Shown here: positions 2,484 through 61,093 of the stretch, in pieces
How positions within the stretch are numbered: position 1 is the stretch's first letter
How the letters are laid out: the number at the start of each line of letters is the position of its first letter
IMG/VR virus record: IMGVR_UViG_3300020419_000923
Location: 1-64,000 of that record
DNA length: 64,000 nucleotides
DNA from: a virus
Reading direction: 5' to 3' (one strand)
Position numbers and translations under genes: made by a program
The notes under the pieces: model-generated
What the model was told of the DNA's origin: nothing
What the model saw: only the letters and a program-made list of their open reading frames with translations
The model's database searches: none

Positions 2484-3017
2484 ATGAGCAAACTTAAAGA
2501 ACTTACATGGGAAAACCACAAGAAGGCTGAACGCATGACACATGCTCGTAAGCTACTCAAGGGCATGGAGCCAGGAGAATACTATCGCTTTGTGTACAAC
2601 CAATCGGTACAGTACGGAGCGTTGGAAGAACAAGCACGATCAAGAGGACTGTTGGCGGGCATTGAATCAATAGCACGTCTGGACAACATGCGCCAGGATC
2701 TAGCTGAACTGGAAACACAGCACGGATACACGCAGGACCCAGATCTGCTCACACCCGTGGTTGATGAGTACGTGGACTATGTAAAGACACTGGACGATGA
2801 AGGCATACTAGCACACCTATACGTAAGGCACTTTGGAGAACTGCATGGCGGACAGATGATCAAGAAGCGAGCACCAGGATCAGGAACCATGTACGACTTT
2901 GATGATGCTCCTGGAATCATAGCCAAGGTAAGAGCCAAACTGCATGATGGCATGGCTGATGAAGCCAATGTGTGTTTCGAATACGCAATGCGTACATTTC
3001 AAGAGCTGGATCGTTGA
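2484..3017 (+). CDS. ho1: heme oxygenase (biliverdin-producing type)
   Basis: Cleaves heme to biliverdin, CO and Fe(II) using reduced ferredoxin in bacteria. The N-terminal helix carries the expected proximal histidine (ENHKKAER, H12), and the distal helix has the Gly-rich signature in the form RHFGELHGGQMIKK (about residues 114-127), matching the GDLSGGQ region of the HO family. At 177 aa it is shorter than cyanobacterial HO1 (about 240 aa) and lacks the C-terminal extension. Heme oxygenases are known in marine T4-like cyanophages, where they feed bilin synthesis; no bilin reductase is visible here, so iron release or heme turnover is equally possible. A small membrane gene overlaps its stop, and a TonB-dependent receptor unit converges on it. 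Confidence 0.88.
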   Translation: MSKLKELTWENHKKAERMTHARKLLKGMEPGEYYRFVYNQSVQYGALEEQARSRGLLAGIESIARLDNMRQDLAELETQHGYTQDPDLLTPVVDEYVDYVKTLDDEGILAHLYVRHFGELHGGQMIKKRAPGSGTMYDFDDAPGIIAKVRAKLHDGMADEANVCFEYAMRTFQELDR

Positions 3018-3318: not shown

Positions 3319-3347
3319 CCATAGGCGACAGATGTCTGTCGCCATGG
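3319..3347. terminator. bidirectional terminator
   Basis: A long hairpin pairs GGCGACAG (3324-3331) with CTGTCGCC (3336-3343), extended by CCAT/ATGG across a one-base bulge. It lies between convergent genes and is followed by TTTT on the minus strand. Confidence 0.75.
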
Positions 3348-3367: not shown

Positions 3368-5161
3368 TTAGAATTTCTTCTTATAGCTTAAAAACCAAGT
3401 TCTACCGTTTTGATTGTAGCCGTCTGGTTTTTGGTAATCTTCATCAGTCACGTTCATTAAACTGGCAGTGATTGATGTTGATTCATCGAAGTTTATTGAA
3501 TGGTGTAGGTCAAACAGATGTACTCCTGACATGTCCTTACGGGCATAGGTGCTGGCATCTAGATCAACATGCTCACCAGTGTATGCGTGGGTCACAGTGG
3601 TTGTGAACTTGCCTGTCATCTCCTGCCTTACAAAACTTTGATTGAATGACCATTTTGGTCTACGTAAAAGCTGTGTACCGCTTGAGTCTTCAGCAATGCT
3701 CCAGTGTGCTCCGAGGTTGTGTTGCCACTCGTTGTTAAACGCATAGTTGTAGTTTGTTTCCAATCCCTTGCGTTCGCTAGTGCCTGACACGTTCGAATAC
3801 GTGGAGTTACCATACGTGATGGCATTGTCGATGTCCGTGGTGTAGTATACCATGTCAAATCTCTTGTAGGTAAAGCCAACGTCCAAGGTCTTGCCTTTTT
3901 CTACATCCAGCGTCGGGTTACCCGAGTAACCATAACTGTCCGCACCGTACTTTTCATACAGGGTAGGTGTTCGCACACTATTGCTCCAATTGGATCTCAG
4001 TTTGAGATCTTCGGTCAACATGTAGTATCCGCCCAGCTTGTATGTGTAGTAGTCATCATAGTCTTCCAAGTGATCCAAACGTACTCCTGAACTGATCATT
4101 CCGTTCTCTACCACTCTCCAGTTGCTGTTTACAAAGTAACCAGTGTTCCAATGATCAGCGTCAACTGAACTGGTGTATGATCCTCTGTTATTAAACTTGG
4201 CTTCCTGGCTTTCGTATTCTATACCTGGAACTATGTCTACGTTGTCCTTGACGATGGTTTGGCTCAACAGTATGTTTGTGCTGTTACTGTCATACTCATC
4301 TATCTCTGAACCGTTAGTGTATGTTCTATCATAGGTTGTGTGTCCAATAGCAAAGTCCATGTGTCCGTGCTTGTTGTTCTTCTTACCTATAATTTGATAC
4401 ACGTTGTTCTTGTTGTTAGCAACATAGTCCGGATCATCTGAGCTACCATCAAGGTCACTGTCGTTATCCTTGTGTAGTATGTTTGTTTTGATATGACCAT
4501 CTTCTAATCTCGTGTAAGTTCCTATGCTGAAGTTACGCACAGAATATCCGTCGTCTTCAGTTCCTTCCTTAACACTGATACCATCACTGTCCGTACCACT
4601 TGCTGTTATAAACAAATGTGTACCGTTCTTGGTTTGATTGTGTACTCGCAGTTCCATACCTTTTGTGTTGTTTGATCCTGCCTTAAATGTTATTGAGTTT
4701 TCATAAAACTCACCTGTGATAAAGTTAACAACTCCACCTATTGAATTTGGTCCTACCATAGCACCGCTTGGATTTTTTACGATCTCAATTGCTGATATGC
4801 TAGACATAAAGTCTTGTCCAAAGTCATGTAGTCCGTTTGTGGTAGAAGCGTCCTTTATAGGCAATCCGTTCATTGTTACCAATGTGTGATTGCTATCACC
4901 CCCACGCATGAACAAACTTACGTTCTGTCCTGTTGGTCCACTCTGGGTCATACTTAATCCAGTTACTCTATTCACTGCTTGTACGAAGTCCTGAGTGTTC
5001 TCTACTTCCAATGTGTACTTGTCTACGTAATCATATGTCGTAGTAGCCGTTGCTTGATCAGTATTACTACGAGTCAAGTAGATGGTAATCTCCATCATAG
5101 CTGAAGCCACACTTGAATAAGTTATTCCTAAAAATAGAAATATTAAAAATAGTTTACGCAT
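3368..5161 (-). CDS. TonB-dependent outer-membrane receptor, BtuB-like
   Basis: A complete outer-membrane receptor of 597 aa (E. coli BtuB is 614). Residues 1-21 form a signal peptide ending in SVASA. A TonB-box-like stretch follows (EITIYLT), then a plug domain (LFMRGGDSNHTLVTMNG, VEIVKNPSG-type and IGGVVNFIT motifs, residues about 75-150), then a beta-barrel ending in a C-terminal phenylalanine (SYKKKF), the BAM assembly signal. The C-terminal third matches BtuB motifs as I remember them (RKGLE, LLRRPKWSF, NVTDEDYQ, GRTW). In bacteria such proteins import cobalamin, siderophores or heme with energy from TonB. It overlaps the upstream DUF6580-like gene by 8 nt. The substrate is not determinable; B12 is the best guess. 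No frameshift or missing domain is seen, so it looks functional. Confidence 0.88.
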   Translation of the reverse strand: MRKLFLIFLFLGITYSSVASAMMEITIYLTRSNTDQATATTTYDYVDKYTLEVENTQDFVQAVNRVTGLSMTQSGPTGQNVSLFMRGGDSNHTLVTMNGLPIKDASTTNGLHDFGQDFMSSISAIEIVKNPSGAMVGPNSIGGVVNFITGEFYENSITFKAGSNNTKGMELRVHNQTKNGTHLFITASGTDSDGISVKEGTEDDGYSVRNFSIGTYTRLEDGHIKTNILHKDNDSDLDGSSDDPDYVANNKNNVYQIIGKKNNKHGHMDFAIGHTTYDRTYTNGSEIDEYDSNSTNILLSQTIVKDNVDIVPGIEYESQEAKFNNRGSYTSSVDADHWNTGYFVNSNWRVVENGMISSGVRLDHLEDYDDYYTYKLGGYYMLTEDLKLRSNWSNSVRTPTLYEKYGADSYGYSGNPTLDVEKGKTLDVGFTYKRFDMVYYTTDIDNAITYGNSTYSNVSGTSERKGLETNYNYAFNNEWQHNLGAHWSIAEDSSGTQLLRRPKWSFNQSFVRQEMTGKFTTTVTHAYTGEHVDLDASTYARKDMSGVHLFDLHHSINFDESTSITASLMNVTDEDYQKPDGYNQNGRTWFLSYKKKF

Positions 5162-5627
5162 AAATCCTCCTTTGTATCGTAACTATTGATTTTATAATCA
5201 AAGTGTAAAATAATGTGCCTGTTAGTGTGTTAGCAAAGAACGGTATAGCCGCTATGTAACATGCTATAAGTCCTTGCCAAGTTAATCCATAATATCCTGT
5301 AAGCCATACAGCAAAGTTGGTAATCACAAAAAACAACACACTAGCAGTTGATCCTGCTAGGTATGCGTTGTTGATGTACCTTGGTATGAAACTACATAAT
5401 GCTATGGACATGTATACCACCCCCAACGTACTGTGCCAACCAAAATATAAATCGCTTAACATCATTGAACCTAATGCTATTGCTATTCCTGATAATGTTG
5501 CTCCTGTAATCATTGGAGCCATTACTGCTACTGCTAGTATTGGTGTAAAGTTGGGTGGGTGTGGTATTATTCTACTCAAGGCGATAGTAGACACGAATAC
5601 TATCAAGTAAAATAAATTTTTGCTCAT
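5154..5627 (-). CDS. DUF6580-like integral membrane protein
   Basis: A 157-aa hydrophobic protein with about five membrane helices. The first helix is followed by the segment PHPPNFTPILA (about residues 23-33), the signature I associate with the DUF6580 family, sometimes described as resembling substrate-binding (S) components of ECF vitamin transporters. It is the first gene of a two-gene unit with the BtuB-like receptor, overlapping it by 8 nt, and has its own promoter 10 nt upstream. The pairing suggests outer- plus inner-membrane uptake of the same small molecule; this is inference from context. Confidence 0.7.
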   Translation of the reverse strand: MSKNLFYLIVFVSTIALSRIIPHPPNFTPILAVAVMAPMITGATLSGIAIALGSMMLSDLYFGWHSTLGVVYMSIALCSFIPRYINNAYLAGSTASVLFFVITNFAVWLTGYYGLTWQGLIACYIAAIPFFANTLTGTLFYTLIIKSIVTIQRRIYA

Positions 5628-5636
5628 CTTTTCTAT

Positions 5637-5665
5637 ACTATACTACGAGTTGGTTGTTTTGTCAA
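5637..5665 (-). promoter_or_regulatory. sigma70-type promoter for receptor unit
   Basis: Reading on the minus strand, TTGACA (5665-5660) and TATAGT (5642-5637) are separated by exactly 17 nt. The -10 ends 9 nt before the ATG at 5627, leaving almost no leader. There is therefore no room for a cobalamin riboswitch. Confidence 0.8.
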
Positions 5666-6453
5666 GTACTTTCGGTAAAGCACTCTTTTGGTAACGAGTT
5701 ACCAGGTCCCTTTGCTTTTTCTATCAGTTCAGGTAGTAGACCCGGGTGTGATAGTTTTTGTTTGTGTGTTAAGAAGCCTGTTTCAAACCCAGACTCTAAA
5801 TCTAATTCTTTCTTATTGCTTATACTTTGTATAATTTTCTCAGCGAATATAGAATGGTTAGCAAGTGTCATATGATTTGCTCTAGTATCTATACTTTGAT
5901 TATACCATAACAACATCTCTTCTTCGGATGTAAATTCTCTATCACATACATGGAAAGTCATGTTACCTATTACCGGTATAAGGTCTGTCCACTCGATGTT
6001 TAAATTAAAACTTGGAATCAGCAGTAGGTGTAATTCGTTTTCAATCTGCTTTACACGTATGCTGTCAATCATTTGTTCTATACGCAATTGATCTATATCA
6101 TCACGTTGTAGGTACAGCCAATAGTCCATAACAGCTCTATACTTTTCTGGCTCAGCAGTTTCAAGGGATTTAGCATCGTGTGTTTCTGTGATACTAGCTA
6201 GATTGCTTAGATGAGGTCTGTCTTTGAAAAACCATTGACGTGAATGTTCTGTTGTAAAGAATATTACAATGTCACCTGGCTGTTGTTTGTCATCACGGAA
6301 CTGCATAGCACTCCATTCATTTGATGAACCAGCACAGGCTTGGTTGACTACTCTATCTATTCTCAAGTACCCTGCTAATTGCCTTTGCCAACACCAATCT
6401 ACTTTCCAGTCAACAGCAAAGCTATCACCATATATCCATAATGTTTTAGTCAA
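5662..6453 (-). CDS. SGNH/GDSL-like hydrolase
   Basis: The N-terminus LWIYGDSFAVDW carries the GDS nucleophile block, and block II glycine fits NQACAGSSNEW (about residues 38-48). Near the C-terminus TLANHSIFAEKI supplies a candidate catalytic His in an LxNH context. SGNH enzymes are esterases or acyl/acetyl hydrolases, often acting on polysaccharide O-acetyl groups. The canonical DxxH is altered, so activity is less certain than the fold. Last gene of a coupled operon, overlapping the nitrilase gene by 8 nt; its stop overlaps the -35 of the receptor promoter. Confidence 0.65.
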   Translation of the reverse strand: MTKTLWIYGDSFAVDWKVDWCWQRQLAGYLRIDRVVNQACAGSSNEWSAMQFRDDKQQPGDIVIFFTTEHSRQWFFKDRPHLSNLASITETHDAKSLETAEPEKYRAVMDYWLYLQRDDIDQLRIEQMIDSIRVKQIENELHLLLIPSFNLNIEWTDLIPVIGNMTFHVCDREFTSEEEMLLWYNQSIDTRANHMTLANHSIFAEKIIQSISNKKELDLESGFETGFLTHKQKLSHPGLLPELIEKAKGPGNSLPKECFTEST

Positions 6454-7225
6454 TGTTTATCTCCGCTGTTACGCTGTCCATTCCTACGTCTTCGCATTTC
6501 TTTACCCATTCGCCGTTTGGATCTATTATACCACTAGGACATTGTATCTTTTCATTTGTTTGTTCACCCTTCATATCAGTACATGCTGAACTTACAACCG
6601 TGTGTACGTTAAACTGTCGGCTTAACAATCTAAGATGTGATTCGTGGTAGTTGTATACAAGTTCGTCATGTTTATCTGTACAACAGTTTACAGAAACAAA
6701 AACTATTCTCGCTCCATGCTGACTTATTTCTCTATAAAAATATGGATTACCCTTAGGACTTACCTGTGGAAAGGCCCATACGTCATTACAAATTAATGCC
6801 GACGCTTTGAATTTATTAAGAGGGTCAAGGTAAAAGTATCCACACGTATTGCCGGGGGCATAAAAATAATACTCACCCATAGCATCTATATTATTAGTTA
6901 ACAGTTGTTTATTGTATACCCCTATACATATTCCTTCTCTATAAACACGTACCTGGTTATAGGGTAAGCCGTCTGGCTCTATATGCCCAGTGCCTAATAG
7001 TAAATTTCTTTTATTATCTAGTAAATGTTTTTCAAGTTTAGCCAGGGCCTCGTTGTAATCTTTATTCTTCTGTTCATGGGTCTGATTCAAACAGTACCCA
7101 CTTAAACTACCTTCTGGAGTTAGTATCCAATCTGAATCCTTATTGGTATCTATTACGTCTATCAAACATTCTAAGTTTTCTTTTACTTCTGCGAATACAG
7201 GCTGTTGGCTAGTTGTTATTTTCAT
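6446..7225 (-). CDS. carbon-nitrogen hydrolase (nitrilase superfamily), copy 1
   Basis: Hydrolyses or transfers C-N bonds (amidase, carbamoylase or nitrilase type). The Glu-Lys-Cys triad is visible: E in LTPEGSLSGY (about 38), K in VYNKQLL (about 103) and C in SALICNDVW (about 146). Length (259 aa) matches single-domain family members. It is clearly paralogous to the gene at 10699-11544, sharing QQPVF, NLEC, ALICND, PKGNPY and GMDSVTAE. ATGA-coupled to the thioesterase gene upstream. Substrate unknown. Confidence 0.85.
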   Translation of the reverse strand: MKITTSQQPVFAEVKENLECLIDVIDTNKDSDWILTPEGSLSGYCLNQTHEQKNKDYNEALAKLEKHLLDNKRNLLLGTGHIEPDGLPYNQVRVYREGICIGVYNKQLLTNNIDAMGEYYFYAPGNTCGYFYLDPLNKFKASALICNDVWAFPQVSPKGNPYFYREISQHGARIVFVSVNCCTDKHDELVYNYHESHLRLLSRQFNVHTVVSSACTDMKGEQTNEKIQCPSGIIDPNGEWVKKCEDVGMDSVTAEINID

Positions 7226-7581
7226 TTTGTTATTCCGTGTGGCGCTGGCTTTCCGTCTTTACCTAAATTTACAAATACAATTTTGTCAACACTTGTAATT
7301 GTTTTCTCTGTTCTCTTATTTCTTACATCACATTGTACTGTAATACTTGTCTTTCCAAGTTCAACAGTTTCCATTCCTATTTCGATTATGTCTCCTCTAA
7401 TAGCACTATGATGGAAATCTATATTACTCATGCTTCTAGTAACCACTCTGTCATTATCTAATTGACAACTACAGTATATGTATGCTTCTTCGTCTATCCA
7501 ATCTAACACACGCCCACCGAACAATGTTCCGTTACTATTAAGATCTTTATGGGCAATCATTTTTCTTGTAAAGTATTTCAT
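7222..7581 (-). CDS. hotdog-fold acyl-CoA thioesterase
   Basis: A 119-aa protein with the acyl-CoA thioesterase (YciA/BFIT-like) signature: DLNSNGTLFGGRVLDWIDE (about residues 13-31), containing the catalytic Asn/Asp region and the central helix, followed by the DFHHSAIRGDII strand. It would hydrolyse acyl-CoA to free acid and CoA in the cytoplasm. The ATG at 7581 overlaps the stop of the preceding 25-residue peptide gene (ATGA); a TTG eight codons upstream is less likely. Thioesterases of this type are unusual in phages. A substrate preference cannot be read from sequence. Confidence 0.82.
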   Translation of the reverse strand: MKYFTRKMIAHKDLNSNGTLFGGRVLDWIDEEAYIYCSCQLDNDRVVTRSMSNIDFHHSAIRGDIIEIGMETVELGKTSITVQCDVRNKRTEKTITSVDKIVFVNLGKDGKPAPHGITK

Positions 7582-7655
7582 TTTTTTATTTTTTTTATTA
7601 TCCAAGTTATAAAGGCCATTATCGCAGTTACTAATACACCAATGCCTATTTTCAT
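7578..7655 (-). CDS. 25-residue membrane peptide
   Basis: A tiny frame encoding one hydrophobic helix (GIGVLVTAIMAFITWII) capped by a basic tail (KKIKK). Both ends are coupled: its ATG overlaps the upstream stop as ATGA and its TGA overlaps the thioesterase ATG as ATGA. That double coupling in an otherwise gap-free operon is the main argument that it is translated. It may anchor or recruit the neighbouring soluble enzymes; unknown. Confidence 0.6.
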   Translation of the reverse strand: MKIGIGVLVTAIMAFITWIIKKIKK

Positions 7656-8365: not shown

Positions 8366-9036
8366 TTAAATCTCTTTTTGTTATGCATCATTCTAGCATA
8401 ACCATCTTGTTGTGTATTACATATTGTATCTTGTAACATCATACTAGTATCTATCTCAATAGACATATTCCAATCTTCTCTTCTGAAAGGAATAATCTGT
8501 GCTACAGGCTCGCCGGCTTTTATTGTAAAGCTATGTTCAAATATTTTAGCAGGCCAATTATGCCACGGAACATCAATTACATCAGTATCTATAACTGCTG
8601 TCATTACTTCAAATCTACTATCAAAATGATAGTATGGTTTTTGGATAATACATGAATATCCCGGAGGTGTTTTTATCTGCCAAGGTACACTTATTACCAT
8701 GTAATCTTTTGGTTGCCCAATAGGACATTGAGCAAATGGATGTCCTTCTTGTTCACTAAATTCTTTCCAACCATCAGGATAGTATCTGGAGAATCCTTCT
8801 GTACCTTCATCAAAATTTGGTTGCGTATGTATGTCTTGATCGACTGCGTTGAACATAATATAACCGCAAGTCATTGCGTCATACACAGGCATACATTTCT
8901 TTACAGTAGGAAAAGTTTTTTCATTATCTAGATACGTATCTAGTTTTGAATACCAGTCTGGTTTAAATGTGTTAGCAGGCACAGGCGGAAATTTTTGTGC
9001 TTCTTCTTTACCACAAGTAAACTTTATGTCAATCAT
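8362..9036 (-). CDS. conserved protein with dUTPase-fold-like C-terminus, copy 2
   Basis: 224 aa, tandem paralog of the following gene, with the same motif order (PPVPANTFKPDWY, PPGYSCII, VIDTDVIDVPWHNWP, KAGEPVAQIIPF). The start at ATG 9036 is preferred because it overlaps the polymerase-like gene's stop as ATGA and has GGAG upstream; a GTG two codons earlier is also open. Tandem duplication with divergence suggests a heteromeric or subfunctionalised pair. Function unknown; a nucleotide-binding role near a polymerase homologue would be plausible. Confidence 0.6.
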   Translation of the reverse strand: MIDIKFTCGKEEAQKFPPVPANTFKPDWYSKLDTYLDNEKTFPTVKKCMPVYDAMTCGYIMFNAVDQDIHTQPNFDEGTEGFSRYYPDGWKEFSEQEGHPFAQCPIGQPKDYMVISVPWQIKTPPGYSCIIQKPYYHFDSRFEVMTAVIDTDVIDVPWHNWPAKIFEHSFTIKAGEPVAQIIPFRREDWNMSIEIDTSMMLQDTICNTQQDGYARMMHNKKRFK

Positions 9037-10661
9037 CTCCACTCCGCAAATGTATAACTTTTAACATCACTACTATCTATGTAGTCCGAATTATTAGAAT
9101 GTTTTACTCTTCCTGATCCATGTACTATGTCACCATCTCTATAAGCAAATGGTTTTTGGATTACCACATCAATGTATTCTCCGTAGTCTATACCTAGTGT
9201 AAGAAAAGTAACCCAGCGTCCTTTCTTACCACGATAGCATCTACCATTTGCTATTACACCTGAGAACTCAACACGATCCATCCATTGTTGTTTTACTCCA
9301 AGTCTTTTCGGAAAGCCATGCCACCACCAACCTGATTTAGTTGGAATGTTTAGTCTATGTGCTTCGCATTGATATACCCATGATCGATAAGATCCTTGAC
9401 AATGTTTTATGTTTGCTTTCCAAAACTCTTTTTTATTATGAGCCTTTTGATATGCTAATGCCCATATAAGACGTCCAAGATTAACAGCATGGGCTCTACA
9501 TAGTCCAAACCCTGATAGTTCTTGTAGTGCGGCCATAGCTTCTTGCTTACGTGGATGTCCGCCCATCTTCTCTACAAACTCAAGTATCTTCTCATCATTC
9601 TTTTTAGCAAAGGCTCTACGATACATATCAGCTTCGTACATGTCTACACCTATGATGTTTGATATAATATCTATAGCGTCATCTTCAAACACGATACTGT
9701 CCTGTACTGCTTCTTGTGACCAGTCTTGGAACATAGCGGCCTTTTGTCTACCACTCATTGCTACTGGTCGTATCATAGCTGTAGCAAATACACAGTCGTA
9801 TACTGACTTAGGTTGTAATGCTCTAAACAGTCTACGCATCGCAGGAGACTCTCCTTGTGTAACACCTAGCACATCTCCTCTACAGAGTAATTGACTTGTA
9901 GCTTCATCTTGTTCAGGATAGTATTCTAGTTTTGTTATTTCGTCTATTTCTAATAGTTGTGATAATCCTCTGTTTGCTAATATGTCAACTTTCAAATGTT
10001 CTAGATCTTCTACTTCGTATTTGTCTAGCAGTATTTGATTGTCTTGTGATATTAAACTCTTAGGTAACTGTCTTGTAAACATAACTATGCCACCACAATG
10101 TTTTGATATAGCTCGTTTCTTTCCTATTAGTTTTCTTTCAATACGTTTTGCTTCTCTTGGATCAACTCCAACTGATTCATATGTAAAGTTGCGTGGAAGA
10201 TTGCCTTTGGCTCCTAATCGTTTAGCCGCTTCCTTCCTAGCACTCTTTTCTCTAAACATAACATAGTTTGATAGTCGAGCAGTCTTGCCTGGCCATCTTT
10301 TAAATATTCTATTCATTACTTCGAGTTGTTGCCAATGCTGAAAGTCAATGTCAACATCAGGCAAGTCGTCACGTAATGGATTCATAAAACGTGCTACGGG
10401 TATATTCCATTTGATAGGATCAACATCGGTTATACCTAGTAGATAGCAAACCAAACTGCTACCTGCTGAGCCACGAGTCATGTGTGTGAGATCTTGGGTG
10501 ATATCTATTATATCGCAAATTTGTAGGAAGTAATCAGTAAATCTCTGATTAAGAATAAGTTCAAATTCTTCTGCTAGCCTTATCTTATAATTTTCTTTAT
10601 CCGGTACTGGCCTTTTAAATCTATCCAAGAGTAGTTGTATGTTTTCTAAGTCTGTTTTCAT
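9033..10661 (-). CDS. C-family (DnaE-like) DNA polymerase III alpha homologue, PHP domain absent
   Basis: 542 aa. Residues 60-107 match the DnaE palm start (RGSAGSSLVCYLLGITDVDP, ARFMNPLRDDLPDVDIDF), including the two catalytic aspartates of PDxDxDF. The third palm aspartate fits HLKVDILANRGL (about D226). The thumb/finger motifs follow (DVLGVTQGESPAMRRLFRALQP, then AMIRPVAMSG). The N-terminal PHP domain and most of the C-terminal beta-binding, OB and tau-binding regions of full DnaE (about 1,160 aa) are missing. ATG 10661 follows GGAGG by five bases; a TTG four codons earlier is less likely. The T4 group normally replicates with a B-family polymerase, which is not in this window. Repair, translesion or accessory synthesis is possible. 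Confidence 0.8.
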   Translation of the reverse strand: MKTDLENIQLLLDRFKRPVPDKENYKIRLAEEFELILNQRFTDYFLQICDIIDITQDLTHMTRGSAGSSLVCYLLGITDVDPIKWNIPVARFMNPLRDDLPDVDIDFQHWQQLEVMNRIFKRWPGKTARLSNYVMFREKSARKEAAKRLGAKGNLPRNFTYESVGVDPREAKRIERKLIGKKRAISKHCGGIVMFTRQLPKSLISQDNQILLDKYEVEDLEHLKVDILANRGLSQLLEIDEITKLEYYPEQDEATSQLLCRGDVLGVTQGESPAMRRLFRALQPKSVYDCVFATAMIRPVAMSGRQKAAMFQDWSQEAVQDSIVFEDDAIDIISNIIGVDMYEADMYRRAFAKKNDEKILEFVEKMGGHPRKQEAMAALQELSGFGLCRAHAVNLGRLIWALAYQKAHNKKEFWKANIKHCQGSYRSWVYQCEAHRLNIPTKSGWWWHGFPKRLGVKQQWMDRVEFSGVIANGRCYRGKKGRWVTFLTLGIDYGEYIDVVIQKPFAYRDGDIVHGSGRVKHSNNSDYIDSSDVKSYTFAEWR

Positions 10662-10698
10662 TATAGCCTCCAATTGCCTAAGTGCCTAAGCAGAGTAT

Positions 10699-11544
10699 TT
10701 ATGATCGGCTAAAGATGGCGTCGGTGGCTTTTTGGATTGTAACTCTTGGCTTAATTTCTACTTCTGCTGTAACGCTGTCCATGCCTTTGTTCTTACATTT
10801 CACAATCCAATTACCATCTGGACCTATGATACCAGACGAACATTGAATGTAATCTGTTTCTTTATGTTGGACAGTTGTAGCACTATTTGAATGAACAATA
10901 TAAAACCCAAACTCTTTGGCAAAGATTTGTAAATGATTTTCGTTCCATACTTTTGCTAATGGATCTAGTTCTTCTCCGTTACAATTAGATGCTACAAATA
11001 ATACATCAACATTGTTCTTAGCTAACTCAATTGGTAGATAAGGATTGCCCTTAGGAGCACTTCTTGGCATACACCATATGTCATTACAAATAAGAGCAGA
11101 TGCTTTTACTTGTTCATGTTCATCTAAATAAAAGTAACTAGGAACCTGTCCAGCTAGGTAACTATGTAATTCACCTCCGCCTTCCCATCCTTGCGTAAGT
11201 AATCTTTTTTTATAAACAGATACATGTTCACCTGCTTTGTTATAAAATAAAATTCCGTTATATGGAAAAGTGTCTTTGCCTCTTATGCTTGAACCAATAC
11301 CTATGCCCACTCCTAGTTCTTTAGCTCGTTCTGCTATCTTTGTTATAGCTAGTTCTACATGCTGTACTTGAACAGTCACGGGTTGATATAACACAGGCGG
11401 CTGACAATATCCGCTTACGGCACATTCAGGAGTAAGTATCCAGTCTGTGTCTTTGTTTGCCTCTATCATATCCAGAGTACATTCTAAATTTTCTAACGGT
11501 TCTCTAAAGACAGGTTGTTGGAATGCTGTAAGTTTAATCTTCAT
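10699..11544 (-). CDS. carbon-nitrogen hydrolase (nitrilase superfamily), copy 2
   Basis: 281 aa with the Glu-Lys-Cys triad: E in LTPECAVSGY, K in VYKKRLL, C in SALICNDIW. It is a paralog of the gene at 6446-7225 but about 20 residues longer, carrying an extra helical segment after the Glu motif (QHVELAITKIAERAKELG) that is typical of full-length family members. The second ATG (11544) has AGGAGG at good spacing. It lies between gp41 and the DnaE-like gene. Substrate unknown; C-N hydrolases include amidases, N-carbamoylases and NAD+ synthetase glutaminases. Confidence 0.85.
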   Translation of the reverse strand: MKIKLTAFQQPVFREPLENLECTLDMIEANKDTDWILTPECAVSGYCQPPVLYQPVTVQVQHVELAITKIAERAKELGVGIGIGSSIRGKDTFPYNGILFYNKAGEHVSVYKKRLLTQGWEGGGELHSYLAGQVPSYFYLDEHEQVKASALICNDIWCMPRSAPKGNPYLPIELAKNNVDVLFVASNCNGEELDPLAKVWNENHLQIFAKEFGFYIVHSNSATTVQHKETDYIQCSSGIIGPDGNWIVKCKNKGMDSVTAEVEIKPRVTIQKATDAIFSRS

Positions 11545-12973
11545 CATCGCCTCCTAGATTTGCTAGGAACGATCTTAGTTTTGTAGAATCTGCTTCTGCT
11601 TTTATCTTACCAACACTATCACCTGTCTTAGGATTAACATCAGCTTCTACAACTTCTTTGTCTTCACCGGACATTGTGTTACGTTTTAATCCTTCATATA
11701 TTGTAGACTTACGTTTATCAAACTCTTGATAATCATCATCTTCTGCTAAGTCTCGGATCCGTAAACTGTCTACGTCAAATTCTAAATCTACCTTACTGCC
11801 AACACCACTAGAACTTCTAGTCTTCATAAGTTGTATTTGATACCTGCCACGTTCACGCATAGCTCTACTTGTAAAGATTCCAATAACATTGTCAGCAGTT
11901 TGTATCTTACTTAAACCACCACTGATGTGCGAATGATCAAATTCAATTTCTTCAACACTTGCTCTGTTTAACTGCGATGCTGTAACGAACACACAGTTAA
12001 GTTCCATAGCCAAGTTACGTAGTTCTTCAGATACAAACTTATCTTTGATAAACAAGTTCTCAGCACTAACTTTAGCACCATTAGGCATTAACAAATCTAA
12101 ATAGTCAATTAGTAAAACATCAACTTTCCTATTCATTTTTATTTCATATTCTTTTAAGTAAGCTCTAATATCATTAGGAGTCTTACCACTAGGCATATAT
12201 TTGACTTGTAATGCTCCTGCCTTCTTACCAATCATTTTTACTTTCATTTCAACTTCGTCAACATCTTTAAAAATATCTCTTGTTGGTATATCAGTAACCA
12301 TACTGTCTACACGCATACTAACCAAGTTCTCTGAAAGTTCAAGTGTAAGATATAATACATTCATTCCTGCTAGTGCCCAGTTGACTCCTAAGTTTGCTAA
12401 GAACAAACTCTTACCAGCGCCACTACCACCAGCAAAGATATTAAGCTCGCCTCTATTAAAGCCGCCAAATAATTTCTTATCTAAACTATCCCAACCTGTA
12501 CTCACTTGTCCATTGTTACTCTTAATTGCTAAAAGTCTTTCTTTAGGATTCAACCAATAGTCTGTTCCTAAGTCTTTTTGTAAACCTATTTGTACAGCAT
12601 TTTTAATCTTCTGTTCAACAGGACCATATTGTCCTTTTTCTAACAAGTCAGCACTTTCAAGTATTGCTTTCTCTAAAGATTTATGTCTAGTAAATGTTTC
12701 AAAGTCAGCAAGTAGCCAATCATAGTGACTTTCTTGTAAACCTGTTGGCACTTCTAAGTTTACTTGGCTGGCCGCATTGACTATTTCTTGTGTAGGCAAA
12801 ACATTATGTTCACCAACATATTCATAAATGAACTGTGCCGCTTTTTGTAATCTTCTATCAAATAAACTGTGATCAAATACACCTTGACATCTTACAAAAC
12901 TTTCAGCGTCACTCAGCATCATCTCGAGATATACTTTTTGTATATCATATCCATAGTCAGTGTTTTGCTTCAT
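11534..12973 (-). CDS. 41: replicative DNA helicase, gp41/DnaB-like
   Basis: 479 aa hexameric 5'-3' helicase that unwinds the replication fork with the gp61 primase. An N-terminal helical domain (1-130) precedes a RecA-like core: Walker A GGSGAGKS (182-189), Walker B VLLIDYLDLL, and the DnaB-like segment TASQLNRASVEE with the arginine-finger-bearing C-terminal strand. The acidic tail (GGDDED) is typical of phage replisome proteins. It overlaps the downstream nitrilase gene by about 11 nt and a 53-residue upstream gene by 17 nt. Confidence 0.93.
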   Translation of the reverse strand: MKQNTDYGYDIQKVYLEMMLSDAESFVRCQGVFDHSLFDRRLQKAAQFIYEYVGEHNVLPTQEIVNAASQVNLEVPTGLQESHYDWLLADFETFTRHKSLEKAILESADLLEKGQYGPVEQKIKNAVQIGLQKDLGTDYWLNPKERLLAIKSNNGQVSTGWDSLDKKLFGGFNRGELNIFAGGSGAGKSLFLANLGVNWALAGMNVLYLTLELSENLVSMRVDSMVTDIPTRDIFKDVDEVEMKVKMIGKKAGALQVKYMPSGKTPNDIRAYLKEYEIKMNRKVDVLLIDYLDLLMPNGAKVSAENLFIKDKFVSEELRNLAMELNCVFVTASQLNRASVEEIEFDHSHISGGLSKIQTADNVIGIFTSRAMRERGRYQIQLMKTRSSSGVGSKVDLEFDVDSLRIRDLAEDDDYQEFDKRKSTIYEGLKRNTMSGEDKEVVEADVNPKTGDSVGKIKAEADSTKLRSFLANLGGDDED

Positions 12974-13420: not shown

Positions 13421-14386
13421 TTAACTAGTATACCATATCTTGTCATTATAGTCAACCTGTTTTTTGATTCTGGTTAATACTGCTCCAATACAACTACCTG
13501 GATCTCCAGGGTTTTTTGGAACATACAAGTTTTTCCAATCTGCTTCAATCTTTTGGTTGGCTGTTTTATTTAAAGCACAACCTCCTGTAATGATTAAATT
13601 TTTACTTGGTAGTTTTTTCTTACACCAATCACTATTTGATTTCAATATCTTTTCATAAACGGCCTGTGTAGCAAATGCCATTTCAATATTATCATCTAGT
13701 TCAGGAAGTATATGTTTGCCTCCTCTATGTAGATTGATGTTAAAATGTACTCCTGGCATACTACCGTCTAGTTCTTCATTTACTAAAGTTTTCTCTAGTG
13801 CATTAACATAAGCACCCTTGGCTCCTTTAGCAAAATCAACTATTTTAAATTCTTCTTTGTTTGGTTCTAATCCACATCGCTGAGTCATAGCACTATAAAA
13901 TAATCCTACACTATGTGGATATTTTTGAGAATAAACTTTCTTAAGTTTGTCTCCAACACCTTTCCATATTGTTAAACTTTCCCATTCACCTATACTGTCC
14001 ATACAAAGTATAGTTGCGTTTTTAAATCCACTTGTATAATAACCGTAAGCGGCATGAGCATGATGATGCCATGCGTATTCTATAGGAGCATCAATACCCC
14101 AGTTGCTTAGATACTTGTCAATATTATTTTCTTTTGCTAGCCAACCTTGACCAGCCCACCATTGTCTTGTGGTTTTCCAAAAAGGTTTTTCGTACCATAT
14201 AATTCTATCAGGTTTGCCATAGGCTTGGTTTGCGGCTTCTATCATAGTCCAATGGAAATCTGGATGGTTGTCTTTCATCTTAGCATGGTCAAAGTCTTTT
14301 GCCATACATGCCCATACAGGTTTATTATGTAGGAAGACTGCTAAACTAGCGTCATGGCTATTGCCTACCATTCCCCACGTAACCAT
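13421..14386 (-). CDS. carbamoyltransferase (NodU/CmcH family), short form
   Basis: Family members transfer the carbamoyl group of carbamoyl phosphate to a hydroxyl of a sugar or other acceptor. Kae1-like domain motifs are present: GNSHDAS (residues 8-14), HHHAHAAYGYY (about 107-117), CMDSIGEW, LEPNKEEFKIVDFAKGAKG and the ATP-site LIITGGCALN. At 321 aa it is much shorter than typical CmcH/TobZ enzymes (about 550-600 aa) and lacks the C-terminal domain. Carbamoyltransferases occur in many marine T4-like phages and could modify glycans or nucleotides. The ATG overlaps the upstream stop as TAATG. Confidence 0.85.
   Translation of the reverse strand: MVTWGMVGNSHDASLAVFLHNKPVWACMAKDFDHAKMKDNHPDFHWTMIEAANQAYGKPDRIIWYEKPFWKTTRQWWAGQGWLAKENNIDKYLSNWGIDAPIEYAWHHHAHAAYGYYTSGFKNATILCMDSIGEWESLTIWKGVGDKLKKVYSQKYPHSVGLFYSAMTQRCGLEPNKEEFKIVDFAKGAKGAYVNALEKTLVNEELDGSMPGVHFNINLHRGGKHILPELDDNIEMAFATQAVYEKILKSNSDWCKKKLPSKNLIITGGCALNKTANQKIEADWKNLYVPKNPGDPGSCIGAVLTRIKKQVDYNDKIWYTS
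13427..13455 (-). promoter_or_regulatory. sigma70-type promoter for gp41 operon
   Basis: On the minus strand, TTGACT (13455-13450), a 17-nt spacer and TATACT (13432-13427). The -10 ends 7 nt before the ATG at 13419, implying a leaderless or nearly leaderless message. It lies inside the 3' end of the carbamoyltransferase gene. Confidence 0.75.
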
Positions 14387-17143: not shown

Positions 17144-17297
17144 ACAGAGTACCAAAGAAAGTCATCGGTACTAGTATTACCCAAAAGACCATCCTCCAAA
17201 GATATGAGCTAGCCAGTTCTCTTGGCACTTGCCAATCTATCCACTCTACGTCCTTCTTAGGATCCTTCTTCCTGTAATCTTTTACTTCCCAATCCAT
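17058..17297 (-). CDS. membrane protein, 79 aa
   Basis: A charged N-terminal 30 residues (RKKDPKKDVEW) are followed by two hydrophobic helices (MVFWVILVPMTFFGTLFTASYIMFLVLLV). ATG 17297 has GAGGA upstream and overlaps the miniature DnaE-like gene by 41 nt. The 3' end is antisense to the plus-strand 59-residue gene. Function unknown. Confidence 0.5.
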   Translation of the reverse strand: MDWEVKDYRKKDPKKDVEWIDWQVPRELASSYLWRMVFWVILVPMTFFGTLFTASYIMFLVLLVDYTSYLRWKQDDHRF

Positions 17298-17847
17298 TTA
17301 GTTCCTCGCATATTAAGTTGATGTGTACCACAATAGCATGTGCGTATGCTACTGCGTGAGCCTTCTTAAAATAGTATCCGTCCTTAGGTTTAGTCCAAAC
17401 ACTTTGGAATATTTCTTCCCAACTTTTATCTTGAAGGTGTCTTTTTGCTGGTCGTATAATTGCTAGTACTGCCGCAAGTTGTTTTATGTTCTTTGGCTTT
17501 AGTTTCTTAATTAGTGAATGATGTCCAGACACATGAAAAACAAGATCACAAAAATCCTTTGTTTCTAAAAGTTCCCACATTGGTTCTTTATTCATAAGAG
17601 TTTTAAGATGGTCCTCATCTTTTACTTTTTCATATATACTTACGTTTAGAAAATCTAATTTAAAGTATCCTCTATCTTCTGCTGTTTCATAGTCAATAGT
17701 CGACAACATGTCTACAGGATTATGAGGTATCTCTGTTACATATACTCCCGTGTTATGTTTTTTCTTAGTGTCAAGTCTTGCTGTTCTGTGTTTTAGTTTT
17801 CCTAAAACATCATTTCTGTCAGCAAAGTCTATATCAATATCAGGCAT
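17257..17847 (-). CDS. miniature C-family polymerase (DnaE-like) protein, 196 aa
   Basis: Opens directly with the catalytic palm motif MPDIDIDFADRND. The third palm aspartate fits GYFKLDFLNVSIYE (about D65). A shortened thumb/finger part follows: LVFHVSGHHSLIKKLKP, then AIIRPAKRHLQDKSW, then KKAHAVAYAHAIVVHINLI, each alignable by eye with DnaE motifs (VFQLES.G, ALxRPGP, NKSHxxAYAL). Everything else of DnaE is absent. It is a second, far smaller relative of the 542-aa protein at 9033-10661. Its start lies 8 nt inside a 52-residue gene. With all three aspartates kept, it may still bind metal; polymerase activity is uncertain. Confidence 0.7.
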   Translation of the reverse strand: MPDIDIDFADRNDVLGKLKHRTARLDTKKKHNTGVYVTEIPHNPVDMLSTIDYETAEDRGYFKLDFLNVSIYEKVKDEDHLKTLMNKEPMWELLETKDFCDLVFHVSGHHSLIKKLKPKNIKQLAAVLAIIRPAKRHLQDKSWEEIFQSVWTKPKDGYYFKKAHAVAYAHAIVVHINLICEELNGLGSKRLQEEGS

Positions 17848-20466: not shown

Positions 20467-20495
20467 ATTATAACCTAATTTGCTTAAAAAGTCAA
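20467..20495 (-). promoter_or_regulatory. sigma70-type promoter
   Basis: On the minus strand, TTGACT (20495-20490), a 17-nt spacer and TATAAT (20472-20467), ending five bases before the ATG at 20461. It overlaps the 3' end of kdsB. Confidence 0.8.
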
Positions 20496-21187
20496 CCATT
20501 TTTATATTCAAAACCGTGTTTGTAGTTCCATTCATAGATATCTTCTTGTGTATTGATTTCGGTTCCATTAAATTCAACATGCGAACATCCAATATCCCAG
20601 CCGTTCTTTAACCAACGTAGTTGTTCTAGCTTTTCAACATCTTCTTCAATAGGGACCTCTAAGGTTGGATACAATTCTAAAGCCTCACGTCTATAACCAT
20701 AAACACCAAGATGCCAATCACCATATCCTGTCATTCCTCTGCCAAACCAAAGTGCTTTGTCTCCAGCACGTACCATCTTAACACTTTCTGGTCTATCTTG
20801 TTCTTCCTTACGCATTGTTGTATAAACAGTACTGACAGAGTAGTGCTTCAACCAATCTACGCATTGGTTTATCATATTAGCTGTTACATCTGGCATGTCA
20901 CCTTGTACATTTACAAACGTATCGTATGCTTTAAAAAATCTACTTGAAATGGCACCAGCACATCTAGCCGTTCCATTTTCATATGGTTTTTCTTCAATCC
21001 AACAATATTGTGCATCAAATAATGAAAATATTTCCATACTATCTGTTACTACAAATGTATCATAACCTGTTTCAACACATGCGTCATAAACATATTTTAT
21101 CATAGGCTTGCCGTCTAACTCGACAAGCATCTTATTAGCGTATCTTTTACTTTCCAGTCTTGCTGGAATTAGAATAGCTGTATTCAT
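20492..21187 (-). CDS. kdsB: CMP-Kdo synthetase (3-deoxy-manno-octulosonate cytidylyltransferase)
   Basis: Activates Kdo with CTP to CMP-Kdo, the donor for Kdo transferases of LPS and capsule. Motifs: IPARLESKRYANKML (residues 7-21, nucleotide loop), RCAGA, NVQGDMP (about 93-99, metal Asp; E. coli has NVQGDEP) and EKLEQLRWLKNGWDI near the C-terminus. 231 aa versus about 248 in E. coli. The ATG lies 41 nt inside kdsA, so the two are translated together. kdsA upstream makes a complete activation route from Kdo-8-phosphate apart from the phosphatase KdsC, which I do not see. Confidence 0.9.
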   Translation of the reverse strand: MNTAILIPARLESKRYANKMLVELDGKPMIKYVYDACVETGYDTFVVTDSMEIFSLFDAQYCWIEEKPYENGTARCAGAISSRFFKAYDTFVNVQGDMPDVTANMINQCVDWLKHYSVSTVYTTMRKEEQDRPESVKMVRAGDKALWFGRGMTGYGDWHLGVYGYRREALELYPTLEVPIEEDVEKLEQLRWLKNGWDIGCSHVEFNGTEINTQEDIYEWNYKHGFEYKNG

Positions 21188-21944
21188 GTATTTCTCCTAC
21201 TACTTTATGGAAGTCTTGTAAATGAAGCATGTTGGGTCCATCGCTAGGTGCGTTATCAGGATCTCTATGAACTTCTAAAAAGAAATTTGTAATGCCCAAA
21301 GCACTACCGGCCCGGCATAAGCCAGGAACGTAATCGCGATTGCCGCCGCTACTGTCTCCATTACCGCCTGGTTTCTGTACCGAGTGGGTGGCATCAAGTA
21401 CGATAGGATTATCGTAATTGTTAAGCATGTAGTCCATGCCAGTGAAGTCAACAACAAGGGTATTGTAACCAAAACTTGTTCCTCTCTCTGTAATCCAAAC
21501 TTCTTTAGCACCTTCTGTTTTTGATAGAATACCTTTTACGTCCCAGGGTGCTAAGAATTGGCCTTTCTTGATGTTTACTATCTTACCTGTAGCACAAGCG
21601 GCTGTTATTAAGTCTGTTTGTCTACATAAGAACGCAGGAATCTGTAATACATCAACTGTCTCAGAATAACTAGAATTTATTAACTCGACCTGTTCTACCG
21701 TGTGTACATCTGTCAATATTTTAAGATGTCCACCGTGTTTGTTTTTAATTAGGTTAAAGTCTCGCATTGTTTTTTCGAAACCTATTCCTCTTACTCCATC
21801 TTTACTACTTCTATTCGCTTTATCAAAACTTGCTTTAAAAATATATTCAATATCTAATTCTTTACAAACGTTTCTACAATGAGAAGCTATTTCAAAAGAT
21901 TCTAAAACACTTTCATGTTGGCATGGTCCTGCTATTATTCTCAT
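21147..21944 (-). CDS. kdsA: Kdo-8-phosphate synthase
   Basis: Condenses phosphoenolpyruvate with arabinose-5-phosphate to Kdo-8-phosphate. Motifs: IAGPC (C8), FKASFDKANRSS, TDVH, QIPAFLCRQTDL, NIKKGQFLAPWD, TERGTSFGYN, DATHSVQKPGG and EVHRDPDNAPSDGP. The metal-ligand set Cys/His/Glu/Asp of the metal-dependent class (as in Aquifex) is intact, whereas the metal-independent E. coli type has Asn in place of the Cys. 265 aa is somewhat short but complete. The ATG overlaps the upstream stop as ATGA. Confidence 0.93.
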   Translation of the reverse strand: MRIIAGPCQHESVLESFEIASHCRNVCKELDIEYIFKASFDKANRSSKDGVRGIGFEKTMRDFNLIKNKHGGHLKILTDVHTVEQVELINSSYSETVDVLQIPAFLCRQTDLITAACATGKIVNIKKGQFLAPWDVKGILSKTEGAKEVWITERGTSFGYNTLVVDFTGMDYMLNNYDNPIVLDATHSVQKPGGNGDSSGGNRDYVPGLCRAGSALGITNFFLEVHRDPDNAPSDGPNMLHLQDFHKVVGEIHEYSYSNSSKTGK

Positions 21945-29618: not shown

Positions 29619-30297
29619 CTTTTGCTCCATGCATCATATTGTGTAATTCATTTTTCCATAACTGATGATACTCACAGTATCTATAATTTTCAAACCAAGG
29701 ACCACCTTCTGTATAATGTATCAATTTTGGTTTTTCTATATCGCTGTATACTCCCATCAAATAATTCCATGTATGATTAAGGCTACCAATTTCTTCATCT
29801 TTTAACCAACTAAATCTATGTAGGTATGCTCCTGTAATTTCAGGATTGTTAACAAAATCTTTTGTTACTGTCTTATTACTCGGGTGTCCACAATTCCATA
29901 GTACCATGCTTGACCAATTCTTTCTTGGATAGATTGTTTGTTTTTGCCCGTCCATCTTTGTACTCTCAGTTACTTTGTAATCATGCTGTACGCACATTAC
30001 TGCGTATTGATCATCTGCTTGATCAAACAGTTCTTTTATGTCTGTGGTAAGAATCATGTCACTGTCCATGAACACAGCCCAGCCCTCATAATTAGTAAGT
30101 TCCGGTATTAAAAATCTTGTAAAAGTAAATTCCGTTGATGCTAGTTTATCAATTGGTCGTGTATACCATCCTGTATCTCTTAGCTCTTGTTGTCTAAGTG
30201 GACGCACATCAATGTCCTTGTTTCTAGCAATAATGCTGTGCTTACATACTTGGTATGCTATATCTTCTCTTGTATCGTAACCTACAAATACTTTCAT
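29611..30297 (-). CDS. glycosyltransferase, GT8-like
   Basis: 228 aa. MKVFVGYDTREDIAYQV opens a GT-A domain; the metal-binding DxD is in AVFMDSDMILT (about residues 87-97), and KLIHYTEGGPWF is the usual C-terminal metal His region of GT8 proteins. ATG 30297 overlaps the upstream stop as TAATG. Likely UDP-sugar dependent. Confidence 0.8.
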   Translation of the reverse strand: MKVFVGYDTREDIAYQVCKHSIIARNKDIDVRPLRQQELRDTGWYTRPIDKLASTEFTFTRFLIPELTNYEGWAVFMDSDMILTTDIKELFDQADDQYAVMCVQHDYKVTESTKMDGQKQTIYPRKNWSSMVLWNCGHPSNKTVTKDFVNNPEITGAYLHRFSWLKDEEIGSLNHTWNYLMGVYSDIEKPKLIHYTEGGPWFENYRYCEYHQLWKNELHNMMHGAKDE

Positions 30298-31061
30298 TAG
30301 TCCCTTCTTTCTATGTCTTCTTCTATACATTCACCCCATTGTACTTCAAGTACATGGGCATCTTCCTTGCCAATGTTTGATGCTTTATGCCAAACTTCTT
30401 TGCCTATTTGATAAGCTATACTATTAGGTTTAAGGTAAACCTCAGTCTTTCTATCTTGCCACTCGGTTACCATACATACTGATCCTTCAAGCACAGTCCA
30501 TACTTCACTGCGTTTGAAATGCTTTTGATCACTCAAACATTTACCAGGATATATTACAAGTTCTTTTACCTTATATCCTTTTGACGGCTTGTCATCTAAC
30601 ACTCTCCAATAACCCCAGTCTCTATTTGTTTTTTGTGTTTTCCATTCGTCTAATATCCAACTAGAAGAATTTAATTTGTTTTCTCCACCTACTCCGTACA
30701 CGAATTTTATTTGATTACTATAAATCATTTCTTCTGGTACAACACCTTTTTTTCTATCGCCGCCATTAGCAAAAATAATATCGTGTCCACTACCGCTAGT
30801 ACACATCAACTTAAAAATAGCATGATTAGCTGTATCGTCATCATCCTCAAAAGAAATTACATCATCTACCATTTCAAGAGATTGTATAATTTTAAGTCTT
30901 TCTTGGAATGGTAAAAAGGGTCTACCTTTTTTTCTAGTTAGCCAATCATCTGAATTGATTCCTACAACCAAAATATCTCCAAGTTTCTTTGCTTCAGTAA
31001 AATACTCAATGTGGCCTGAATGAACAGGATCGAAACCTCCAGTTACCAAAACTACTTTCAT
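30297..31061 (-). CDS. nucleotidyltransferase-cupin fusion
   Basis: 254 aa in two domains. Residues 1-135 form a cytidylyltransferase-type Rossmann domain with GGFDPVHSGHIEYF (HxGH) and a conserved NSDDWLTRKKG-like segment. Residues 150-254 form a cupin similar to type II mannose-6-phosphate isomerases: VKELVIYPGKCLSDQKHFKRSEVWTVL, EGS, then EVWHKASN. The first domain probably activates a sugar or polyol phosphate as a CDP or ADP derivative; the cupin may isomerise or sense the sugar. A fused pair is unusual. First gene of this segment with a short 20-nt gap upstream. Confidence 0.78.
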   Translation of the reverse strand: MKVVLVTGGFDPVHSGHIEYFTEAKKLGDILVVGINSDDWLTRKKGRPFLPFQERLKIIQSLEMVDDVISFEDDDDTANHAIFKLMCTSGSGHDIIFANGGDRKKGVVPEEMIYSNQIKFVYGVGGENKLNSSSWILDEWKTQKTNRDWGYWRVLDDKPSKGYKVKELVIYPGKCLSDQKHFKRSEVWTVLEGSVCMVTEWQDRKTEVYLKPNSIAYQIGKEVWHKASNIGKEDAHVLEVQWGECIEEDIERRD

Positions 31062-59038: not shown

Positions 59039-59488
59039 ATGAACAGTGAAATCACGTGTAGTGGAGCCTTATTCTATGCTTTAAAAACAAAGAGGTTTTT
59101 ACTATTACACAGAACACAAAGCAAACAAAAGAATGTTTGGGGATTAGTAGGCGGAACCAATGGAAAAAATGAGTATCCTTGGCCTGCTCTACAACGGGAA
59201 ATTACTGAAGAAATAGGAGCATTACCGAACATTTTAAAAACAATTCCATTAGAAACCTTTGTAAGTAGTGATCATAAATTTAGTTTTCATACATATCTTT
59301 GTGTTACTGCTGAAGAATTTTTACCTGATTTAAACGAAGAACACGACGGATATAGTTGGGTAAGTTTTGGTAAATGGCCTAAGCCGTTACACATGGGACT
59401 AAGAAATACACTACAAAATAAAACCAATCAAACAAAACTAAAAACAGTTTTTGACTTAATAGGATATTTAGAGAATGAAAAAAATTAA
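59039..59488 (+). CDS. Nudix hydrolase
   Basis: 149 aa. A perfect Nudix box Gx5Ex7REUxEExGU is present: G-TNGKN-E-YPWPALQ-REITEEIGA (about residues 38-60). Hydrolyses nucleoside diphosphates linked to another moiety; substrates could be oxidised dNTPs, NADH or nucleotide sugars. Located between the tail genes and the halogenases, overlapping the first halogenase gene by 14 nt, so it is co-translated with that module. Confidence 0.88.
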   Translation: MNSEITCSGALFYALKTKRFLLLHRTQSKQKNVWGLVGGTNGKNEYPWPALQREITEEIGALPNILKTIPLETFVSSDHKFSFHTYLCVTAEEFLPDLNEEHDGYSWVSFGKWPKPLHMGLRNTLQNKTNQTKLKTVFDLIGYLENEKN

Positions 59489-60977: not shown

Positions 60978-61093
60978 TGGGAACATTTACTTTAGCAAGT
61001 GGTCTTGGACTTTTATTCTGCGGTATAGTAGCTATGGCTGTAATAGGGTTTACAGGCCTTTGGATAGTTAACAAATTTAAGGACGAAGACTAA
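60977..61093 (+). CDS. 38-residue membrane peptide between halogenases
   Basis: The GTG start overlaps the first halogenase stop (TAGTG), and the TAA overlaps the second halogenase ATG (TAATG). One hydrophobic helix (LGLLFCGIVAMAVIGFTGLWIV) with a charged tail (NKFKDED). The precise joins at both ends support translation. It might tether the halogenases to the membrane; inference only. Confidence 0.6.
   Translation: MGTFTLASGLGLLFCGIVAMAVIGFTGLWIVNKFKDED

Follow-up and report, generated by a model that had tools for sequence, protein, structure and literature searches.

A BtuB-like receptor and a DUF6580 membrane protein encoded side by side in phages: a probable cobalamin uptake cassette

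Phages are known to enter cells through BtuB and other TonB-dependent receptors. What, then, would a phage do with an intact receptor gene of its own, overlapped by the gene of a small membrane protein? Such a pair is found in the window (the whole stretch of DNA analysed here), which covers 64.0 kb of the 66.7-kb virus record IMGVR_UViG_3300020419_000923 (Table 1). Comparison with related loci indicates that the receptor and its partner, a DUF6580 protein, quite probably form a phage-borne cassette for the uptake of cobalamin (B12 or a related corrinoid) that is used during infection.

The gene pair and its phage surroundings

The pair is embedded among phage genes, including those for a terminase, a tail sheath and a DnaB-type helicase. 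The isolates closest to the window in terminase and helicase belong to the group of the 287-kb Pseudomonas phage PA5oct (54-56% identity) and a relative of the terminase lies on a 382-kb contig; it is thus likely that the record represents part of a jumbo phage genome. Genes of the Kdo and heptose type suggest a Gram-negative host. Together with glycosyltransferase-like genes, the Kds- and HldE-like proteins may allow the phage to remodel lipopolysaccharide; a long series of glycosyltransferase-like ORFs occupies 26-38 kb of the window. A chimeric assembly is refuted in practice, because an independent 38.7-kb viral contig (L082) has the same block. Both share the gene order heme oxygenase, receptor, DUF6580, hydrolase, pol III and helicase, with 71% identity between the receptors and 70% between the DUF6580 proteins.

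A full receptor had been claimed from the sequence-only reading, and the profile matches bear this out: both the Plug domain (PF07715, E 5.6e-15) and the barrel (PF00593, E 9.2e-26) score above the curated Pfam cut-offs. The assignment to BtuB, which had been based on motif similarity, is likewise backed by model and structure searches and by the riboswitches that precede homologous phage genes. The NCBIfam model of the B12 receptor BtuB, TIGR01779, aligns with residues 24-594 (E 7.5e-55), with a score of 186.6 bits that is below the equivalog cut-off of 599.7 bits. It outscores every other named receptor model on the window protein and on each of the nine further phage and bacterial receptors checked. 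The solved structure that matches best is E. coli BtuB (PDB 1nqe), over residues 56-593 (E 6.5e-21). An AlphaFold model built on a shallow alignment (5 sequences) has a mean pLDDT of 37.5, too low to judge a plug-in-barrel structure. Stretches resembling EITI or VTIY follow the signal sequence, as judged by eye, in most receptors of the phage pairs.

The membrane partner was correctly recognized as DUF6580-like: it matches PF20221 at profile positions 6-154 of 162 (E 1.5e-33; 116.8 bits, cut-off 27). Only three columns, R19, N26 and G119, are invariant in the DUF6580 alignment. The S-component-like character that had also been proposed finds no backing in sequence. A 30-sequence DUF6580 profile retrieved no PDB sequence at E<=10, hence none related to BtuM or an ECF S-component. 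The AlphaFold model from a shallow alignment (4 sequences) has a mean pLDDT of 46.6, too low for a comparison with the six-helix S-component fold.

The two reading frames do overlap, sharing 8 nt. The putative promoter, whose end is separated by 9 nt from the start codon of DUF6580, is the best of 12 promoter-like sites in the region. In L082 a site with 10 of 12 consensus letters stands at the same distance from the pair (4.5% of shuffles are equally good), and sites with 11-12 of 12 letters are found upstream of several other phage pairs. The number of promoter-like sites in the region is at shuffle level.

Table 1. Features of the window and of related viral loci
Feature	Locus	Position	Strand	Remark
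Heme oxygenase gene adjoining the pair	Window	2484-3017	+	Also in L082 and, elsewhere, L136
GC-rich terminator-like stem after receptor	Window	3324..3343	-	GGCGACAGACATCTGTCGCC; nearly identical stem after receptor in L082
BtuB-like TonB-dependent receptor	Window	3368..5161	-	597 aa, complete, C-terminal Phe; ORF and profile matches
TonB-box-like stretch	Window	5072..5092	-	EITIYLT, residues 24-30; by eye
Probable signal peptide	Window	5099..5161	-	MRKLFLIFLFLGITYSSVASA, residues 1-21; by eye from translation
DUF6580 membrane protein	Window	5154..5627	-	157 aa; PF20221
Ribosome-binding site of receptor gene	Window	5166..5171	-	AGGAGG, inside 3' end of DUF6580; sequence read directly
Sigma70-type promoter-like site	Window	5637..5665	-	TTGACA-17-TATAGT; 11/12 consensus letters
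Carbon-nitrogen hydrolases (two)	Window	6446-7225, 10699-11547	-	Same phage block as pair
YciA-like hotdog thioesterase	Window	7222-7605	-	Same phage block as pair
Shortened DNA polymerase III alpha-like protein	Window	9033-10673	-	NTPase and finger domains
Carbamoyltransferase-like gene	Window	13421-14386	-	Same phage block as pair
Second small ORF	Window	17257-17847	-	PDIDIDF motif; no Pfam match
KdsA-like, KdsB-like, HldE-like sugar genes	Window	20492-21944, 30297-31061, 62571-63821
Tryptophan-halogenase-type flavoenzymes (two, tandem)	Window	59475-60977, 61093-62574	+	Trp_halogenase E 1.6e-87, 3.6e-89
AdoCbl-II just 5' of second-family receptor	L144-L146, L149-L155, L157-L163, L166, L167, L171-L174, L176, L178
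Glutamine riboswitch (RF01739)	L083	7704-7751	+
Glutamine riboswitch (RF01739)	L084	7709-7755	+
Glutamine riboswitch (RF01739)	L094	7702-7749	+
Glutamine riboswitch (RF01739)	L096	7710-7757	+
Freshwater-2 RNA (RF02980)	L094	10506-10580	+	Directly after DUF6580
Freshwater-2 RNA (RF02980)	L096	10507-10586	+	Directly after DUF6580

Distribution among viruses and bacteria

Viral DUF6580 genes escape a single-sequence search, which returned no match; a profile search alone succeeded and gave 60 further viral loci. In 20 of these a receptor gene adjoins DUF6580 (DUF6580 first in 14, receptor first in 6), and the gene pair that the sequence-only reading had proposed to seek in viral metagenomes accordingly exists in both orders. 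Seven pair-bearing records contain a terminase match, some of them weak. Most viral loci carry DUF6580 with no receptor next to it, and a plug domain occurs anywhere in 2 of the 33 such records searched. A profile search with the receptor uncovered 37 further loci with phage receptors of a second family, about 535 aa long; DUF6580 is absent from all 14 of the second-family records that were tested. The CsgG gene of one second-family locus, L004, has its nearest matches in Pelagibacter phage HTVC008M and OM43 phage Melnitz. In kin, genes near second-family receptors include UroD-, IscU-, SufE- and Rieske-like ones.

Carriage of an intact receptor had been called unusual. This is true of isolated phages, since the isolate collection holds no DUF6580 record, but not of uncultivated ones, among which about 100 viral loci are now counted. 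Records with btuB that are listed as phages in the isolate collection (Acinetobacter phage MD-2021a, Salmonella assemblies) look cellular and were excluded as evidence; the MD-2021a records CAKLQH020000002.1 and CAKLQF020000003.1, with btuB present and kdsA on sister records, resemble a bacterial chromosome. Among 32 relatives of the terminase none has a plug domain or DUF6580, with second-family records as positive control; the cassette is hence an accessory element.

In the DUF6580 tree the phage members fall into phage-only groups save for one row, and all pair members lie inside a single set of 32 phage rows (support 99/99). Phage receptors occupy one side of a 100/100 branch that separates them from Bacteroidota receptors. 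Sampling of bacterial phyla other than Bacteroidota was slight. The window receptor groups with those of the riboswitch-bearing loci L092/L093 and L085/L090 (support 94/89); L092 and the window also have UvsW-, primase- and helicase-like genes in common. Both genes of the pair are under purifying selection (dN/dS 0.03-0.22, with dS saturated for the most distant pairs). Outside viruses, DUF6580 exceeds the cut-off in 59 of 148 genomes of Bacteroidota, the phylum of Runella.

Cobalamin riboswitches and the identity of the substrate

The strongest pointer to the substrate comes from RNA. Five loci (L085, L090, L092, L093 and L131) have a riboswitch of the AdoCbl-II class (RF01689) directly before DUF6580, and L121 and L125 have one between the two genes of the pair, with covariance-model scores of 71.7-84.2 bits against a gathering threshold of 36.5. 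A phage model built from five of these seven RNAs detects 33 loci in all (the seven pair loci, L104, which has DUF6580 alone, and 25 of the 37 second-family loci), although independent cases are fewer than 33 owing to near copies (L090/L131, L092/L093 and many second-family loci). Mostly the RNAs lie 22-25 nt 5' of the receptor start codon, adjoining the ribosome site. Their helices covary, with changes on both sides in 13 of 20 pairs, a level reached in 0 of 500 shuffles. In 44 loci of terminase relatives nothing scores above chance. Other structured RNAs occur in receptor-first pairs: glutamine riboswitches some 500 nt 5' of the receptor gene and, in two loci, freshwater-2 RNA (Table 1).

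Bacterial loci provide a second, independent line. The 40 DUF6580 regions that were read from Bacteroidota contain 18 cobalamin riboswitches in 16 loci, against 0.19 expected from about 1.6 cobalamin riboswitches detected per genome. L073 and L074 have separate riboswitches for DUF6580 and for the receptor, and in L070 the riboswitch directly precedes DUF6580. Taken together, the phage and bacterial RNAs argue for cobalamin as the substrate, and the option of cobalamin uptake, one of several offered by the sequence-only reading, is the one that these data favour. As sister viruses keep the same pair under B12-sensing switches, viruses that carry it probably make infected cells import scarce B12.

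The window itself has no riboswitch according to the Rfam gathering threshold, Rfam at E<=1 or an unfiltered model search, in which the top score of 9.4 bits is at chance level; a cobalamin riboswitch is also absent from L082, the nearest relative of the window. The substrate is therefore deduced through homologues, and the cobalamin reading is well supported by way of the relatives and only indirectly for the exact copy in the window. The riboswitch may have been lost, or never acquired, in this lineage, in which a host-type promoter would drive the pair.

An adjacent gene points elsewhere. If the receptor imported heme, the heme oxygenase encoded 350 bp away could free its iron or make bilin, and heme-receptor models do match the window receptor, but less well than TIGR01779 (86 against 186.6 bits). 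The heme oxygenase gene adjoins the receptor in both the window and L082; however, it is convergent and outside the operon, and it is present in no other pair-bearing phage locus examined. With the B12 receptor model on top for every receptor tested and riboswitches of the relatives indicating cobalamin, uptake of heme or iron appears very improbable; operon structure and the regulation in relatives led us to reject heme as the substrate.

An intact outer-membrane receptor could also serve phage competition, replacing, masking or acting as a decoy for the host receptor, so that superinfection is blocked or the protein is released in vesicles and uptake is incidental. Blocking and release had both been suggested for this locus and find no support here. 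Cobalamin-dependent regulation in sister phages and the repeated pairing with a conserved inner-membrane protein would be unexpected for a decoy, and the TonB-box-like stretch is conserved. We regard this explanation as highly unlikely.

Closer to cobalamin uptake is the import of another corrinoid (pseudocobalamin, cobinamide or some other salvage form), DUF6580 then acting as a partner in salvage and not as the transporter. The receptor has diverged too far for its exact ligand to be deduced, and in Runella (L010/L070) DUF6580 is adjoined by a DUF71/COG2102-like gene, identified from its sequence, whose family is linked to B12 salvage (PMC3541065). On the other side, the phage pairs read show no salvage enzyme among their neighbours. 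What AdoCbl-II riboswitches sense is the cofactor inside the cell, and they are therefore silent on the imported form either way. Import of a different corrinoid is, in our estimate, unlikely.

Proposed role and known systems

For a cobalamin cassette the following sequence of events can be proposed. The host-type promoter would allow joint transcription of DUF6580 and the receptor during infection. The receptor would then reach the host outer membrane, where the TonB system of the host would power entry of cobalamin into the periplasm. Because the receptor alone fills only the periplasm, we infer that DUF6580 acts at the inner membrane, where it would move cobalamin to the cytoplasm or support that step. 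The benefit to the phage would be that B12-dependent reactions are kept supplied, i.e., the methionine synthase of the host and, in sister phages, their own B12-binding radical SAM enzymes. In sister phages the AdoCbl-II riboswitch would turn the genes off at plentiful cobalamin, whereas the window lineage would have the promoter only.

As to consumers encoded by the phages, B12-binding radical SAM genes occur in 9 of 14 DUF6580-bearing phage records above 80 kb and in 1 of 7 controls, an excess that is not significant (P = 0.06); the co-occurrence is suggestive only. DUF6580-bearing records with such genes include L083, L096, L121, L125, L091, L100, L119 and L127, and two of the genes flank the cassette in L121. 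Several of the phage radical SAM proteins that were classified are nearest to KedN5-type methyltransferases. The 66.7-kb record itself yielded no B12-dependent enzyme. A B12-dependent ribonucleotide reductase was ruled out as a consumer, the phage reductases fitting class I models.

On a wider scale, large-phage lineages, both jumbo phages of the window type and HTVC008M/Melnitz-like phages, might share a B12 supply line of their own, consisting of a BtuB-like receptor, in part a DUF6580 one-component importer, and their own AdoCbl-II switch; we consider this proposal about as likely as not. If it holds, B12 shortage would directly limit phage replication, and RF01689, a riboswitch class that now gains a genomic home, would be in good part phage RNA. 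In their original description the AdoCbl-variant RNAs are entered simply as 'marine' (PMC2864571). Seawater contains little B12, which many microbes are unable to make; phage-borne uptake, combined in sister phages with a sensor of their own, would imply viral management of this vitamin in the infected cell.

The viral role in B12 has been discussed mainly via biosynthesis-type genes, e.g., cobS (PMC9301287). Within the open-access literature searched, neither a BtuB nor a cobalamin riboswitch had been described from a phage, and DUF6580 was not named. The megaphage Mar_Mega_1 is comparable in that the very large genome of this marine phage encodes a TonB-dependent receptor, of the SusC-like type (PMC9723777); however, that receptor is annotated for carbohydrates, and neither a partner nor a riboswitch is reported. 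Phage glutamine riboswitches are described as rare (PMC9004378). That of OM43 phage Melnitz is, like the AdoCbl-II RNAs, a phage-encoded riboswitch of marine phages but differs in ligand and genes; in the same study a cobalamin riboswitch appears solely in the host, before the host btuB (PMC9004378).

With BtuB itself the phage receptor shares the plug-barrel family, a near full-length alignment and chain length (597 aa vs. 594 aa), and its relatives share the B12 riboswitch upstream. In contrast to BtuB, it is phage-encoded, paired with DUF6580 and far under the equivalog cut-off, and the window copy departs from BtuB-type regulation in having no such riboswitch. BtuM, a solitary B12 transporter of the S-component type, is a small protein of the inner membrane; its gene is linked to btuB, and it is believed to bring in B12 independently of BtuCDF (PMC6072759). 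DUF6580 resembles it in the proposed role, not in sequence, and has no invariant cysteine whereas BtuM has an invariant cobalt-coordinating one. DUF6580 (PF20221), hitherto a family without known function, gains a testable one: the window protein is a clear member, bacterial members are tied to B12 riboswitches and BtuB-like receptors, and most phage members branch separately from the bacterial ones.
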